In this document: in pieces, positions 14,099-39,899 of the stretch
Layout: each line of letters starts with the position of its first letter
How positions within the stretch are numbered: the stretch's first letter is position 1
Source of the DNA: Candidatus Hydrogenedentota bacterium
GTDB lineage: Bacteria > Hydrogenedentota > Hydrogenedentia > Hydrogenedentales > JAEUWI01
Reading direction: 5' to 3'
NCBI GenBank assembly: GCA_016791475.1
Contig: JAEUWI010000062.1
Coordinates: forward strand, 1-41,307
DNA length: 41,307 bases
Made by a program: the position numbers and the translations under genes
The notes under the pieces: generated by a model
Databases searched by the model: none
Told to the model about the DNA's origin: nothing
Seen by the model: the letters and a program-made list of their open reading frames with translations, nothing else

Positions 14099-14175
<77 letters not shown>

Positions 14176-33555: not shown

Positions 33556-35013
33556 TCACACCACCGGGCATACCTGCGCGGTACCACGGCGGTTTCCTTT
33601 ATCTCTGAGCTGGTCATATTGATTGGCCAGGGACGTCACGCCCTGTTTCTTGAACCATTGTAGATTCATGGCTTCGTGGGCCTGGGGACACGCCGCTAGC
33701 CGCCACCAGCCTTTCCCGGAGGAGGCCAGTATCCAGGCCTGGTCGTTGCGCACGCCTTCCCGGTGCAGAAAGTCGTGTATGGCTTTGGTCCGCTTACACT
33801 GCTTTAACCGGTAGCAGCGCAGCTTGTGCCGCAGCCATCCATCCACCTCCTGCAGGTGGGACCGGCAGGCCGCGTGACGAAAGTAGTGCAACCAGCCCGT
33901 CTGGAACGAGCGCAGCTCGCTTAGCACCCGCTCGAAGCTTACGCCCCGATTACGCCGGGTGATGGACCGGAGCCGTTCTTTCATCCGCGCCAGGCTCTGG
34001 GGGGCGAGCCCCAGTTTTCCGCCGCGCAGCAGACGGTAGCCGAGAAACTTACGTCGCTCAACGAAGTCCACCGCACTTTTCTCGCGGTTCACTTTCAGGC
34101 GCAGTGCCTTTTCAAGATACTGCGTCACCGACGCCATCACCCGTTCCCCCGCCTGCCTGGACCGCACGTAGATGTTGCAGTCGTCCGCATAGCGACAGAA
34201 GCAGTGCCCCCGGCGCTCCAATTCCTTGTCCAAGTCGTCCAGCAGTATATTGGCCAACAAGGGGGAAAGAGGACCACCCTGGGGGGTGCCTTCATGCCGC
34301 CAGATGCAGACCCCGTCCAGCATAATGCCGGAGGTCAGAAAGCGGCGGATTACCCGCAACAGGTCTTTATCCCCGATGCGGCGGGCAAGGCGCGCCATGA
34401 GGACATCGTGATTCACCCGGTCAAAGAATTTCTCCAAGTCCAGGTCCACCACCATGCTCCGACCCTCCTCCACGTAGCCCGACGCCGCGCGCAGTGCGTC
34501 GTGGGCGCTCCGGCCACGGCGGAAACCGTAGCTGGATTCGGAGAAAGAGGGGTCTACCAGCGGTTCCAACACTTGAAGGATCGCCTGTTGCACCAGACGG
34601 TCCACCACCGTGGGAATGCCCAGTTCGCGCACCCCACCGCCCGGCTTCGGGATTTCTTTCCGTCGCACCGGTTGCGGCTGGTAGCTTCCGTCCAGTAGTG
34701 AACGAATCAGCGCCCCGTGATGTTGGCCCAACCAGACGCCCAAGTCCTCAACGGTCATGCCGTCGAGGCCCGGAGCACCCCGGTTGCTTTTGACTTTGCG
34801 GTACGCCTCGAGCAGGTTTGCTCGCTCCGCTATCCGCGCCATCAGCGGTCTCGCCAAGGCTCGATTCCTATCCAACGCCGCAGACTCTTGCCACGCCTCG
34901 TATACCGCAGTTACGGTTCCGCCTTCACCGCGCGTATCGGGGCACGAGGGGTTCGACCAGTCCTTGAAAAGGTCAAGTTGATACCCACCGATTGGCTGTG
35001 GCTCCAAGTCCAT
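33556..35013 (-). CDS. ltrA: Group II intron reverse transcriptase/maturase
   Basis: This 485-residue intron-encoded protein makes a DNA copy of the intron and helps it splice. The reverse transcriptase domain (about 65-340) shows the expected motifs: 'IPKPGGGVRELGIPTVVDRLVQQAI', 'SYGFRRGRSAHDAL', 'VDLDLEKFFDRVNHDVLM', 'GTPQGGPLSPLLANI' and the catalytic YADD at 275-278. The maturase (X) domain follows ('FQTGWLHYFRHA', 'WLRHKLRCYRLKQCKR'). There is no HNH endonuclease. The last codons ('NRRGTAQVCPVV') are read from intron domain V itself, and the stop TGA 33558-33556 lies in the linker to domain VI. No stops or shifts are seen, so it looks functional. Confidence 0.95.
   Translation of the reverse strand: MDLEPQPIGGYQLDLFKDWSNPSCPDTRGEGGTVTAVYEAWQESAALDRNRALARPLMARIAERANLLEAYRKVKSNRGAPGLDGMTVEDLGVWLGQHHGALIRSLLDGSYQPQPVRRKEIPKPGGGVRELGIPTVVDRLVQQAILQVLEPLVDPSFSESSYGFRRGRSAHDALRAASGYVEEGRSMVVDLDLEKFFDRVNHDVLMARLARRIGDKDLLRVIRRFLTSGIMLDGVCIWRHEGTPQGGPLSPLLANILLDDLDKELERRGHCFCRYADDCNIYVRSRQAGERVMASVTQYLEKALRLKVNREKSAVDFVERRKFLGYRLLRGGKLGLAPQSLARMKERLRSITRRNRGVSFERVLSELRSFQTGWLHYFRHAACRSHLQEVDGWLRHKLRCYRLKQCKRTKAIHDFLHREGVRNDQAWILASSGKGWWRLAACPQAHEAMNLQWFKKQGVTSLANQYDQLRDKGNRRGTAQVCPVV
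33560..33593 (-). ncRNA. Group II intron domain V
   Basis: This 34-base hairpin (minus strand, from ACCGCC at 33593 to GGTGGT at 33560) is the catalytic heart of the intron. The basal stem ACCGCC/GGTGGT pairs with one G-U, and the upper stem GGTACC/GGTATGCC has the expected bulge. The length is the canonical one. Domain VI follows at 33559-33521 (a G-rich/C-rich hairpin ending CTACTCGAT). Confidence 0.8.
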
Positions 35014-35429
35014 CGAGTCGTCCAGTCTGCTCCTTGCGATAAAAGATTCGGTCCTTCACCACCAAAAGACGGCTACTACGACCTCAGCTGACTTCTCCAA
35101 TTCCATCCCCCCGTGTCGCCACGAAGGTAGCCACCGTCGTGGTGGCAGAACCGGAGATCTCCCAGGGTAAGACATCGCACTTTCGGTCGGGCCTCGCCGG
35201 ATTTACCTGCGACTCTTCCGGATAGCTATCGGGCGTCACGTTCCATTGCACGTTTACCCAGAGTTCGTCGGCCTTATATCCGGTTTCTGTTCGTCGAGTC
35301 CGACCTTTGGGCTAGGGCTTCCTCCCCACCATGCCTCGCGACATCGCAGTTGCCTTCGCCTAACAGTTCCCACTATCAGGGCCTGTAGAGGACTTACACC
35401 TCATAAGTACGGGGCCATGCCTGGCACAC

Positions 35430-35466: not shown

Positions 35467-35543
35467 AGAATCGCAGGCGGATGCTACATTCTTTACGAAC
35501 TCGTCAATGGTTGAGATTTTTTCCCTTCAAAACAGTCGCCAAT

Positions 35544-35622
35544 CGGGAGCGCGGGTTTTCGTACCCGCGTATCGTGCGACGGAGTCGCACGACAATCACG
35601 GACTGGAAAGTCCGTGCTCCCG
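35544..35622. repeat. Cloverleaf of three hairpins closed by a 7-bp stem
   Basis: CGGGAGC (35544-35550) pairs with GCTCCCG (35616-35622). Between them stand three hairpins: GCGGGT/ACCCGC (35551-35568), TCGTGCGA/TCGCACGA (35572-35592) and CACGGACT/AGTCCGTG (35597-35616), the last with a GGAA loop. All pair perfectly. It is not a tRNA: no anticodon or T-loop pattern fits. It lies between the ABC-operon stop (35646) and its terminator. Confidence 0.85.
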
Positions 35623-35645
35623 CTTTTCGATACTTTCACAAACTC

Positions 35646-36839
35646 TCAGATCTCCCTGAGCGCGGTCGCTATGGGCAGGCGCGCCGCCCGGATGGCCGGG
35701 AAGAGTCCGCCGAGGACGCCGATAACTGCGGCCCAGAGGATGGCATTGGCCAGCAGTGCGGGCGTTACGGTGAAGGCGAAGGCGATCTGACTGAAGGATT
35801 GCCAGTTGATGGTGGAGGCCTGGTAGCCGTTGAGCGTGAAGTAGGCCGCCGCCGCGCCCGCGGCGCCGCCCGCGAGCGACAGCACGAGGGACTCGAACAT
35901 GACGGAGAGAACGATGGGGCTTGCGCCGAAACCGAGCGCGCGCAGCGTGGCAATTTCGCGGGTACGCGCGGCCACGGCGCTGTACATGGTGTTGAGCGCG
36001 CCAAAGAGCGCGCCGAGGGCCATGAGCCCGGTGATGAAGTAGCCGATCCCCTGAATGAATCCTGTGAGCATGGTGGATTGCTCGGAGAGCCATTCGGACT
36101 GGAGCATGGCCTTCACCTTCAACTGGGGATTGCTCTCGAGGGCGCCCCGGAACTGATCGATGTCCTGGGGTGATATTAACTTGGCGTAGACCGACTGGAA
36201 TCCTTCCTGCCGGTTGTAAGCCGGCTGGAGCACGGCCGAATCGGTCCAGATCTCCGACTCGGCGGAGCCGCCGCCGCCGGAGAAGATACCGACGACTTCC
36301 CAGTCGATCATGCCGATGTGAATCTTCTTGCCCACGTCGAGCCCGGCGAAGGAACGGGCCGCGCCGATGCCGGCAATGACTTCATTTTTGCCCAGCTCGA
36401 TGTTGCGACCTTCCAGGATCTTGAAGTCGCTGCGCACGGCCATGGCTTCCTTGCCCACGCCGCGCATGGGAACGTTTGCATCGGTGCCGGTGCTGCGCTT
36501 GGGCAGATTGACCATCACGAAGAGCTCCGAGGAGGTGAATGGCGCTCCTTCGGGCGTTCGCGCAATGCCGGGCGCATCGGCGATGAGGCGGGTCTCTTCG
36601 CGGGTAAGGCCGCTGGTCATCTCGCTGTCGGCCCCGGCCCGGAGCACGATGGCCACGTCCTGCGGTCCGGACACCGTCATGGCGGCGCGAAAGCCTTCGG
36701 CGATAGAGAGCACGCCGACGAAGACGGCCACCACGCCGGCGATACCGATGGCGGTGGTAATCGCGGCGCCTTTGCGCGCGGGAATGGTGCGCAGGCTGAA
36801 CAGTGAGACGGAGACAATTTGAGAGAGCCAGTTCATCAT
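35646..36839 (-). CDS. ABC transporter permease (MacB/FtsX type)
   Basis: This 397-residue inner-membrane protein is the second permease of the exporter. One membrane segment near the start ('AAITTAIGIAGVVAVFVGVLSI', about 25-46) is followed by a periplasmic domain (about 50-260) and three segments in an FtsX domain ('YFITGLMALGALFGALNTMYSAVAART', then two more near the end). 'REIATLRALGFG' is the coupling helix typical of MacB permeases. ATG 36839 overlaps the previous stop as ATGA and has GGAGG 5 bases upstream; ATG 36836 is the alternative. It is the last gene of the operon. Confidence 0.9.
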   Translation of the reverse strand: MMNWLSQIVSVSLFSLRTIPARKGAAITTAIGIAGVVAVFVGVLSIAEGFRAAMTVSGPQDVAIVLRAGADSEMTSGLTREETRLIADAPGIARTPEGAPFTSSELFVMVNLPKRSTGTDANVPMRGVGKEAMAVRSDFKILEGRNIELGKNEVIAGIGAARSFAGLDVGKKIHIGMIDWEVVGIFSGGGGSAESEIWTDSAVLQPAYNRQEGFQSVYAKLISPQDIDQFRGALESNPQLKVKAMLQSEWLSEQSTMLTGFIQGIGYFITGLMALGALFGALNTMYSAVAARTREIATLRALGFGASPIVLSVMFESLVLSLAGGAAGAAAAYFTLNGYQASTINWQSFSQIAFAFTVTPALLANAILWAAVIGVLGGLFPAIRAARLPIATALREI

Positions 36840-37993
36840 GCATTCCTCCGCAAGGCAACAGCAATTTGAAGCCGCATGGCCTGCAGTGCGGGCAGGATAC
36901 CCGCCACGAAACCGAGGGCAAACACGAGCGCGACGCCGAGTGCGACATAGTGCGGGGCGAAGTAGAAGATGGGCAACATGCCCGGAACGGGGCTGCCGCC
37001 CGCGGCGATCAGCCACGCGGCGGCGAGTCCGGCAAAGCCGCCCACCATGGCGATGACGCTGGACTCGGCCAGCACCAGGGCGAGGACGAGTTCATTGGTG
37101 AAGCCCATGGCCTTGAGCACGCCGATCTCCTCGGTGCGCTCGCGCACGGTCTGGGCCATGGTGTTGCCCGCGACGAGGAGGATGGTGAAGAAGACCGAAC
37201 TCAGGATGGCGGTGAGGATCGTTCCCATATCGCCGATCTGCTGGGCAAAGCCCTGCATGAAAGCGCCCTCGGGCTCGGTCTTGGTCTCATAGGGCGAGTT
37301 TTCAAACTCTTTGTCGATGGCGGCGGCCACTTCCGTGGCGCGGTCGGGATCGGCGATCTGCACCCCGTACCAGCCCACTTCACCATCGCCGCGCGCGCGC
37401 CCCTCGTCGAGGTAGTCATAGCGCATGTACATGCCGGAAGTGTCCGCGCTCTTCTTGGTGCCGTCGAAGATACCGACGATATCGAATTCCCACGCGGTGT
37501 CGCCCGTGTGGGGCCAGATGGGCGACATGAGGGGAATGCGATCACCCACCTTCCACTGGAATCGATCCGCCAGGGTGCGCCCGACGATGGCGCCGCTGCG
37601 GGTTTCCAGCCACGCCTTCTTCTCCGCTTCGGGCAGGGTGTACTCGGGGTACATCTTCAGGAAGGCTTCGGGATCGGTGGGGATCGTGGCGAAGAAGTTT
37701 TCCGGCTTGTCCTGATAGATGCCGTTGAACCAGACGAAGGGCACCGCGTAGGCCACGCCGTTGATGCGCTCGATCTTCACCCGGTGCGCCTCGGGCAGGC
37801 TCATGATGAGCGAGACTTTGTGGCGCGTAATGAGTCGGTCCGCGCCGGCCATGGTCACACCACCGGTGAAGGACTCCTTGATCGTACACAAGAGGCCGAA
37901 GAGCAGGAAGGCGATGAAGATGGACAGCAGTGTGAGGGCTGTGCGCAGCTTCTTCCGCTTCAGGTTGCTCCAGATAAGGGCGAGGAATTTCAT
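36836..37993 (-). CDS. ABC transporter permease (MacB/FtsX type)
   Basis: This 385-residue inner-membrane protein is the first permease. It has an N-terminal membrane segment ('ALTLLSIFIAFLLFGLLCTI', about 18-37), a periplasmic MacB-like core domain (about 45-260) and a C-terminal FtsX domain with three segments. 'RTEEIGVLKAMGFTNELVLALVLAES' is the coupling segment that meets the ATPase. It pairs with the 35646-36839 protein, giving a heterodimeric exporter. Start ATG 37993 overlaps the ATPase stop as ATGA. With the adaptor it should push lipids, peptides or small molecules out of the cell; the cargo is not visible. Confidence 0.92.
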   Translation of the reverse strand: MKFLALIWSNLKRKKLRTALTLLSIFIAFLLFGLLCTIKESFTGGVTMAGADRLITRHKVSLIMSLPEAHRVKIERINGVAYAVPFVWFNGIYQDKPENFFATIPTDPEAFLKMYPEYTLPEAEKKAWLETRSGAIVGRTLADRFQWKVGDRIPLMSPIWPHTGDTAWEFDIVGIFDGTKKSADTSGMYMRYDYLDEGRARGDGEVGWYGVQIADPDRATEVAAAIDKEFENSPYETKTEPEGAFMQGFAQQIGDMGTILTAILSSVFFTILLVAGNTMAQTVRERTEEIGVLKAMGFTNELVLALVLAESSVIAMVGGFAGLAAAWLIAAGGSPVPGMLPIFYFAPHYVALGVALVFALGFVAGILPALQAMRLQIAVALRRNA

Positions 37994-38688
37994 TCCGGCG
38001 CCTCCGCGGAGAGCTGGCCCTTGTCCAGATGCACGGTCCTGGTGGCTCGGGCCGACGCGTGGGGATCGTGGGTCACCATGATGATGGTCTTGCCGTGCTC
38101 CTGATTCAGTGCCTGCAGGAGGCTCAGGATTTCATCGCCCGATTTGCGGTCCAGGTCGCCGGTCGGTTCGTCGCAGAGGAGGATCGTGGGGTCGGTCACA
38201 ATGCCTCGGGCAATACCGACGCGCTGCTGTTCACCGCCCGACATGGTGCGTGGGTAATGCTTTGCGCGGTGGCTCAGGCCCACGACACCCAGGGCGGTCT
38301 CCACGTGCTTGCGCCGTTCCTTTTTTGAGAGGTGCGTGAGGAGCAGGGGCAGCTCCACGTTCCGCTCCGCCGTGAGAACGGGCATCAGGTTGTAAAACTG
38401 AAACACGAAGCCCACGTGGCGCGCCCGCCAGGCCGCGAGCTGCCGGTCGGACATATTGTCTATCCGGTCGCCGCCGATGGTCACCGTGCCCTTGGTGGCG
38501 CGATCCAGGCCGCCGATCAGGTTCAGCAGCGTGGTCTTGCCGGAGCCCGAGGGCCCCATGAGCGCGAGAAACTCGCCCTCTTTCACCTCCAGGTGCATGT
38601 CCGACAGAACATGGATATGCTCCGAACCGCGCCGGAAATTCTTGTCCACATGGTCGACGGTTACCAGTACTTTCTTGCCTTCACTCAT
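37990..38688 (-). CDS. ABC transporter ATPase (MacB/LolD type)
   Basis: This 232-residue cytoplasmic ATPase powers the exporter. It shows Walker A GPSGSGKT at residues 45-52, signature 'SGGEQQRVGIARGI', Walker B 'ILLCDEPTGDLD' and the H-loop 'MVTHDPH'. 'IGGLDRATKGTVTIGGDRI' and 'FQFYNLMPVLTAERNVELPLLL' place it in the MacB/LolD subfamily. ATG 38688 overlaps the adaptor stop as ATGA, and its own stop overlaps the next start in the same way, so the four proteins are made in a coupled series. Confidence 0.95.
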   Translation of the reverse strand: MSEGKKVLVTVDHVDKNFRRGSEHIHVLSDMHLEVKEGEFLALMGPSGSGKTTLLNLIGGLDRATKGTVTIGGDRIDNMSDRQLAAWRARHVGFVFQFYNLMPVLTAERNVELPLLLTHLSKKERRKHVETALGVVGLSHRAKHYPRTMSGGEQQRVGIARGIVTDPTILLCDEPTGDLDRKSGDEILSLLQALNQEHGKTIIMVTHDPHASARATRTVHLDKGQLSAEAPE

Positions 38689-39899
38689 CCCGTAGCCTCC
38701 GTTACACTGGCGCCTTCCGCCAGGTAGTCAAATCCTTCGATTACAATCCGTTCCCCACTGCTGACCCCCGCCTGAACCCGCGCCTGCCCGCCGACCTTGT
38801 CCCCTATGGTCACGGGGCGGGGCTTTACCTTGCCCTCGCTCACCACCCACACGATATCGCGGCCGTCGCGCTGGCGCACGGCGGCCTCCGGAATGGCGGT
38901 AAACTTCTCCACGGGCTTCGCTTCCTCCTTGCTCTGAAAGGCCACTTTCACGCTCATTTCCGGAAGGATGCGGGGATCCAGCTCATCAAAGGCGACGCGC
39001 ACCTTTACCGTGGCCTTCTGGCGGTCCGCCGTGGGGATGATGGCGATAACCTTCGCGGGAATCTTCCACTCGGGGTACGAGTCCAGGGTCGCTTCCACGG
39101 GCTGGCCCGCGCTCACGCGATTGATGTAGCTCTCGCTCACATCCACCTCGATTTCGAGGGAGGTCATGTCCACAATCGTGCAGATGCCGGTGCGGGTGAA
39201 TTCGCCCGCCGACATGGAAGAGATCATTTCGCCGGGCTGGGCGTTTTTGGTGGTCACTACACCCGCAAAAGGCGCGGTGATAATGGTGTCTTCGATTTCC
39301 TGCTTCCACACGGCGATTTGGCGCTCGGCCACGGCAATATCGGCCGTCTGCCGTTCGAGCTGGGCTTTCAGCGCTTCGGCCTGAGACTGGGCCCGGTCCG
39401 TATCCGCCTCGCTGCCAATGCCTTCTTTCGCCAAATTGGCGAATCGCTTCAGGTCGCGCTCGGCCTGAGCGATGTTCACCCGGGTTTCCGCCAGGGCCTT
39501 ACGGGCCGAGGCGGCCTGGGCTTCGGCCAGTCGGAGACTCTGCTCGGTGTTGGAGGCATCGATGCGCGCGAGAACCTGACCCTCCTCCACCGACATCCCC
39601 TCCTCCACCAGCACTTCGAGGACCTTGCCGGAGACTTTGGAGGAAACCGTGGCCTCCCGCCGCGCCGTGACGTAGCCAGAGGAATTCAGCAGGGTATTGC
39701 CGCTTTCCCCGCCGGTAGTCGTCTCGGAGACGACGTGGGTCTTCACCGCGAGTGCCTTGGGCTGATTGGCCCACCACCAGGCCCCGCCGCCCGCCCCACC
39801 GGCGACCAGCAGCAACAGGAAGAAAAAGGGCGCGCCGCTTCGACGAGGGGTACTGCGGTCGATGCGTAGTTGATCGAGACTATGCTTTTTTTCTGTCAT
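38685..39899 (-). CDS. Efflux adaptor (membrane fusion protein, MacA-like)
   Basis: This 404-residue protein bridges the inner-membrane exporter and the outer membrane. One membrane anchor (about 24-43) follows a basic N-terminus. Then come a biotinyl-lipoyl-like half ('SSKVSGKVLEVLVEEGMSVEEGQVLARID'), a long coiled-coil hairpin (about 115-200, 'AEAQAASARKALAETRVNIAQAE'), the second lipoyl half ('TIITAPFAGVVTTKNAQPGEMI') and beta-barrel and membrane-proximal domains. This is the RND/MacA adaptor order. It is the first gene of the operon; the ribosome site is weak. No TolC-like gene is present in the window. Confidence 0.93.
   Translation of the reverse strand: MTEKKHSLDQLRIDRSTPRRSGAPFFFLLLLVAGGAGGGAWWWANQPKALAVKTHVVSETTTGGESGNTLLNSSGYVTARREATVSSKVSGKVLEVLVEEGMSVEEGQVLARIDASNTEQSLRLAEAQAASARKALAETRVNIAQAERDLKRFANLAKEGIGSEADTDRAQSQAEALKAQLERQTADIAVAERQIAVWKQEIEDTIITAPFAGVVTTKNAQPGEMISSMSAGEFTRTGICTIVDMTSLEIEVDVSESYINRVSAGQPVEATLDSYPEWKIPAKVIAIIPTADRQKATVKVRVAFDELDPRILPEMSVKVAFQSKEEAKPVEKFTAIPEAAVRQRDGRDIVWVVSEGKVKPRPVTIGDKVGGQARVQAGVSSGERIVIEGFDYLAEGASVTEATG

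Follow-up and report, generated by a model that had tools for sequence, protein, structure and literature searches.

Among described systems, the element analyzed here comes closest to the REPINs or BIMEs, doublets of REP sequences (Bertels and Rainey 2011, PMC3116915), with which it shares two inverted REPs with outward tags and a dispersed, intergenic, multicopy and species-specific occurrence. The GTAG-tagged REPs and the RAYT REPtrons (Nunvar 2010, PMC2817692; Di Nocera 2013, PMC3733652) are likewise comparable, as they too combine a tag with a GC-rich hairpin and include genes for REP-associated tyrosine transposases (RAYTs) adjoining REPs. Like the copies described below, GTAG REPs lie between convergent genes or behind unidirectional ones; they are often found <20 bp from the end of an ORF, and REP ends sometimes donate stop codons (PMC3733652). 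The REP tag itself is described as ‘most often GTAG’ (PMC8266576). Finally, the TIRYT units or TIRtrons (Di Nocera 2013, PMC3733652) have a counterpart in the genome studied here, where a RAYT-like gene with long terminal inverted repeats is present on contig C50.

Fold and transcriptional setting of the cloverleaf

The window, the whole stretch of 41,307 nucleotides that was analyzed, belongs to the genome of a Candidatus Hydrogenedentota bacterium (G000) and contains, at 35544–35622, a 79-base segment in which the original prediction had described three perfect hairpins and an outer stem; both the sequence and the coordinates proved exact. The minimum-energy fold of this segment as RNA is a four-helix cloverleaf of −49.8 kcal/mol (shuffle mean −27.8; z = −7.46), and 0 of 200 shuffles folded as well. 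The complementary strand, folded as DNA, is equally good (−31.9, z = −7.49). The hairpins occupy 35550–35569, 35572–35592 and 35597–35616; the pairing of C35550 is ambiguous, giving 7 bp either to the outer stem, as previously described, or to hairpin 1, as in the minimum-energy version.

The segment is a REP doublet with a central hairpin, to which no strand is assigned and which scores 105.5 bits with the model R1. REP half 1 (35544–35569, + strand) comprises the outward tag CGGGAG and the first hairpin (CGCGGGT-TTTCGT-ACCCGCG), an exact GGAG-REP motif that is found elsewhere in the genome. REP half 2 (35597–35622, − strand) is inverted and comprises the same tag, CGGGAG, and the hairpin 35616–35597 (CACGGACT-TTCC-AGTCCGTG), with an exact motif match at 35597–35620. 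Between the halves, and again without strand assignment, stands the central hairpin (35572–35592; TCGTGCGAC-GGA-GTCGCACGA).

The predicted position between the ABC operon and its terminator was confirmed on the − strand. The last gene of the operon (35646–39899) encodes a MacB/FtsX-type ABC permease (35646–37016, − strand; Pfam MacB_PCD and FtsX) and ends on a TGA stop codon at 35646–35648, and a terminator-like hairpin (35466–35435, − strand), recognized both by direct reading and by a terminator-like site call, follows the cloverleaf. The operon transcript thus includes the cloverleaf in its 3′ UTR, ahead of the terminator. No promoter-like site was found near it, and the window itself holds no repeat copies of note. 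Given this 3′-UTR placement, the cloverleaf may plausibly protect the 3′ end of the ABC mRNA as an incidental by-product; an effect on this mRNA is possible, but the explanation of the cloverleaf does not need one.

A group II intron occupies 33556–35429 on the − strand of the same region, with an RT/maturase ORF at 33556–35013 and Rfam D1D4-3 and D1D4-1 matches at 35051–35345. Its likely 5′ end, GTGTG (35429), stands directly behind the terminator hairpin of the ABC operon; terminator hairpins are the usual target of class C introns.

A dispersed family at gene 3′ ends

A 161-base query gave 37 matches in G000, ~36 of them distinct, exposing a family that the single copy available to the original prediction could not reveal. 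The REP-half motif GGAGCRCGGRNTTTCYNRYCCGYG has 49 exact sites in this genome versus 0 for a reversed control. In each full copy a third hairpin separates two inverted ones that bear GGGAG tags on their outer sides (GGGAG-hairpin ... hairpin-CTCCC). The REP halves and the centre are swapped and recombined among copies, as anticipated by the earlier suggestion of a repeat with modular hairpins: in some copies GGGAG-CACGGGTTTTCYTACCCGTG replaces the second half, and tandem or composite copies also occur. Across 54 halves the CGG before AG is invariant or nearly so, and the tag consensus is aaGCGGGAG in G000 and gcAGGAG in the congener G002.

In 28 aligned copies 95.8% of cells are paired, a figure biased towards the structure because one of these paralogous copies supplied it. 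The double changes are independent of this derivation. Covariation, the absence of which among homologues the original prediction had named as grounds for refutation, was found in 8 of the 30 pairs (2.8 in shuffles) and in 19 cells (3.5 in shuffles), and 0 of 500 shuffles reached either value. When the partners were slid by 1 to 3 columns, pairing dropped to 25–48%. The central hairpin holds most of the covariation, with double changes that keep pairing in five of its nine pairs.

The copies are located at gene 3′ ends, often 0–6 nt from a natural stop codon or ending on one, and adjoin unrelated genes in both orientations. Several of the adjoining stops are recognizable natural ends, of EPSP synthase, TspO, MocA-type and YchF proteins. 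For core-only copies, a long ORF ends 0–6 nt away on 14 of 28 sides, compared with 1.2% of control positions, and for armed copies, which carry the outer arms described below, the stop of an opposing ORF of at least 100 aa lies 22–24 nt away in 8 of 18, compared with 0.5%; the control comprises all positions, including coding ones, so that both contrasts are overstated, and the two classes were split after the data had been seen. In the armed copies this stop is the TGA of the terminal CTGAG, and a ninth copy has an opposing ORF of 98 aa.

Alignment of 18 copies beyond the core revealed that most have common arms, CTCAGAGGCTGTGAATTTTTCC... and ...TTCACAAGCTCTCAG, with an arm-to-arm length of 145–147 bp in 12 of 13 trimmed copies and 135 bp in the remaining one. 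By this alignment and these lengths the window copy extends over 35503–35649 (no strand assigned), a unit of ~147 bp that the original prediction could not see, with a diverged left arm and the right arm TACTTTCACAAACTCTCAG, and the permease TGA lies within its terminal CTGAG. Conservation is lowest in the arms, which are missing from about a dozen cloverleaf-only copies. A restricted arm pattern, used in the search for an autonomous parent with these outer arms, gave four matches, all of them family members, and one match for the reversed control. The conserved central hairpin and the recurring ~146-bp unit, the end of which coincides with a TGA stop codon, are the unusual features of the family. 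It is possible, if rather doubtful, that the armed form is a distinct transposition unit (a REP doublet with an acquired third hairpin and outer arms) specific for the TGA stops of convergent genes, which would rebuild the stop (CTGAG) at its own end and so insert harmlessly. Elsewhere in G000 (L026, C3:64537–65122), two armed copies stand 446 bp apart with similar left flanks, suggesting duplication of a local segment.

The window permease has no close orthologue among the congeners, and ychF and a MocA-type gene were used for the comparison of empty sites. Behind ychF the cloverleaf follows the stop by 5 nt in G000 and another GGAG-REP, GGAGGGCGGGTTTTCCTACCCGCC, follows it by ~3 nt in G002; neither was found at this end in G001 and G003, and the protein C-terminus is the same in all four genomes. 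The 3′ end of the MocA-type gene has the element in G000 and only a short inverted repeat in G003. At both gene ends insertion polymorphism between close relatives was seen, at genus level only. Structural matches numbered 1, 40 and 0 in G001, G002 and G003, respectively, with the G002 matches corresponding to REP doublets particular to that genome, and save for half-matches in G002 the DNA sequence of the cloverleaf is confined to G000. By sequence comparison among these congeners, the cloverleaf copies are species-specific.

In G002 (L148, C397), a partial tandem duplication at 1972–2330 takes in the 3′ end of ychF, its stop codon and the REP; the second HFRFNV end is degenerate and again precedes the same REP. 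Another abundant family of long palindromic doublets (GAGGTGGCACGGGCTTCCAGCCCGTG...) occurs in the same order (L133 and L138, in G016 and G059), with up to 26 model matches in G016.

RAYT genes beside GGAG-tagged REPs

Five RAYT genes are present in G000. GGAG-tagged REPs flank those on contigs C17 and C6 (TATGGAG-CGGGGGCTTTCCAGCCCCCG and doublets of CTGGGAG-CGCCGGCATCCCTGCCGGCA); in the C6 doublets the tags lie on the outside and the spacer contains additional hairpins. No RAYT directly flanked by the exact REP family of the cloverleaf was found in the 529-contig G000 assembly. Searched alone against a collection of genome contigs from 84,980 species, the REP motif was found in 39 stretches, mostly from KSB1 with some from Verrucomicrobia and Lentisphaerae, and in three of these (KSB1, Akkermansiaceae) the REP adjoins a RAYT belonging to the same subfamily. 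In the Akkermansiaceae stretch (L084), GGAGCACGGGTTTTCTTACCCGTG lies ~55 bp upstream of the start of the RAYT domain and is identical to a REP on contigs C15 and C74 of G000. Nine RAYTs have HUH (NHxH) and tyrosine motifs in common, and NCBIfam NF047646 is the best family for all nine, two (including that on C6) scoring above its cut-off and seven below. Across 68 genomes of the order, RAYT and REP-doublet presence showed a moderate association (11/17 versus 16/51; Fisher p = 0.016, with kinship ignored).

The RAYT on C50 was considered as the cognate transposase and is a weak candidate, located ~0.8 kb from one copy with a TspO gene between them and bounded by unrelated terminal inverted repeats of its own. 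With these long inverted repeats (TGCCTCAACCTGAAAGGTTAAGCCACTTTCGGTGCAC), the RAYT-like gene (L037:3230–4050) forms a TIRYT-type unit, and C89 (L112) and C9 (L113) may have comparable arrangements.

Origin of the cloverleaf and comparison with known systems

Several readings were weighed against these data. A conserved RNA element, kept for a transcript function as a 3′-UTR stabilizer, a processing or attenuation structure or a small RNA, would account for the 3′-UTR position ahead of the terminator, the strong RNA fold, the covarying paired columns and the preference of the copies for gene 3′ ends. We nevertheless consider it improbable, as both strands fold with equal stability, copies in either orientation neighbor unrelated genes, congeners have no cloverleaf or a different REP at the orthologous gene ends, Rfam gives no match, and palindromic DNA serving as a transposase substrate would retain its pairing likewise. 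No Rfam family covers 35544–35622 at the gathering score, and ARAGORN and the Rfam tRNA models called only a tRNA-Met at 14099 and none at the cloverleaf. The small-RNA option in the original prediction consequently finds no support, given also that no promoter-like site is nearby, that the neighboring genes are unrelated and that the element is missing after the orthologous gene in congeners. Its tRNA-like option fares no better. An integron attC-like site, a tRNA-like structure or another recombination site is scarcely credible: folded single-stranded hairpins resemble attC in outline, yet no tRNA was called, Rfam has no match and the copies are single and scattered over many contigs, with no cassette arrays.

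The larger unit invites comparison with a MITE of a classical DDE insertion sequence, for which the short inverted arms (AGAGGCTGTGAA/TTCACAAGCTCT) would bound ~146 bp, the CTCAG at both ends would be a target duplication and the cloverleaf would be a passenger. Outer arms conserved over many unrelated sites, a near-constant total length and CTCAG-like pentamers at both ends are what such an element should display. However, the arms are the part that varies most and that cloverleaf-only copies lack, the restricted arm pattern matched family members only, an identical pentamer at every site would be odd for random target duplication, and the conserved parts are REP hairpins of the kind found beside RAYTs, making this origin highly improbable.

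At a probability of roughly 0.87, the data are explained by a REPIN-like miniature mobile DNA element, in which a conserved central hairpin stands between two inverted REP hairpins whose GGAG tags point outward; we infer that a RAYT would move it in trans through a single-stranded DNA step, and it may also slow 3′ exonucleases. Mobility is deduced from the copy number and the species-specific sites, rather than from any transposition event seen. When the region becomes single-stranded, through replication or supercoiling, the strand would fold into the cloverleaf, and a RAYT, which belongs with the HUH tyrosine transposases of IS200/IS605 type, would recognize tag and hairpin, cleave outside the REPs and paste the copy elsewhere. 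Copies would persist where they are harmless, at or directly behind stop codons and above all between convergent genes; the window copy would have inserted on the stop codon that closes the last ABC permease gene, ahead of the terminator, and from the operon 3′ UTR it might hinder 3′ exonucleases in the manner of other REPs. The multicopy state, the fold, the covariation, the variation in presence among species at orthologous sites, the location at gene ends and the RAYTs next to REPs of this design are observed; interpretive in this scheme are the RAYT as mover, the single-stranded step and any effect on RNA.

The cloverleaf family is best read as new and its kind, the non-autonomous REP doublets or REPINs that RAYTs mobilize, as already known. 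A striking structure that might be mistaken for a new RNA is explained away. RAYTs and REP doublets are thereby extended to an uncultured lineage, and a link is drawn between the GGAG-tagged type and RAYTs in KSB1, in Akkermansiaceae and throughout the window's order. A central hairpin that is conserved and units whose ends coincide with stop codons provide a testable idea of harmless entry into gene-dense genomes. In contrast to GTAG REPs, the tag is GCGGGAG, with GGAG beside the hairpin, and not GT(A/G)G; the GGAG part is held in common with Pseudomonas REPs such as GTGGGAGC.... As PMC8266576 gives the tag as ‘most often GTAG’, GTAG was treated as a subtype trait and not as strictly defining, and the claim is accordingly worded ‘REPIN-like’. 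Because the classical GTAG tag is absent and no in-genome cognate REPtron was found, the elements constitute a separate GGAG-tagged, REPIN-like family. Relative to TIRtrons, the terminal repeats on C50 are unrelated in sequence to the cloverleaf. Relative to REPINs and BIMEs, the family has a conserved, covarying third hairpin in the spacer, and some of its copies lie within a ~146-bp unit with extra arms.
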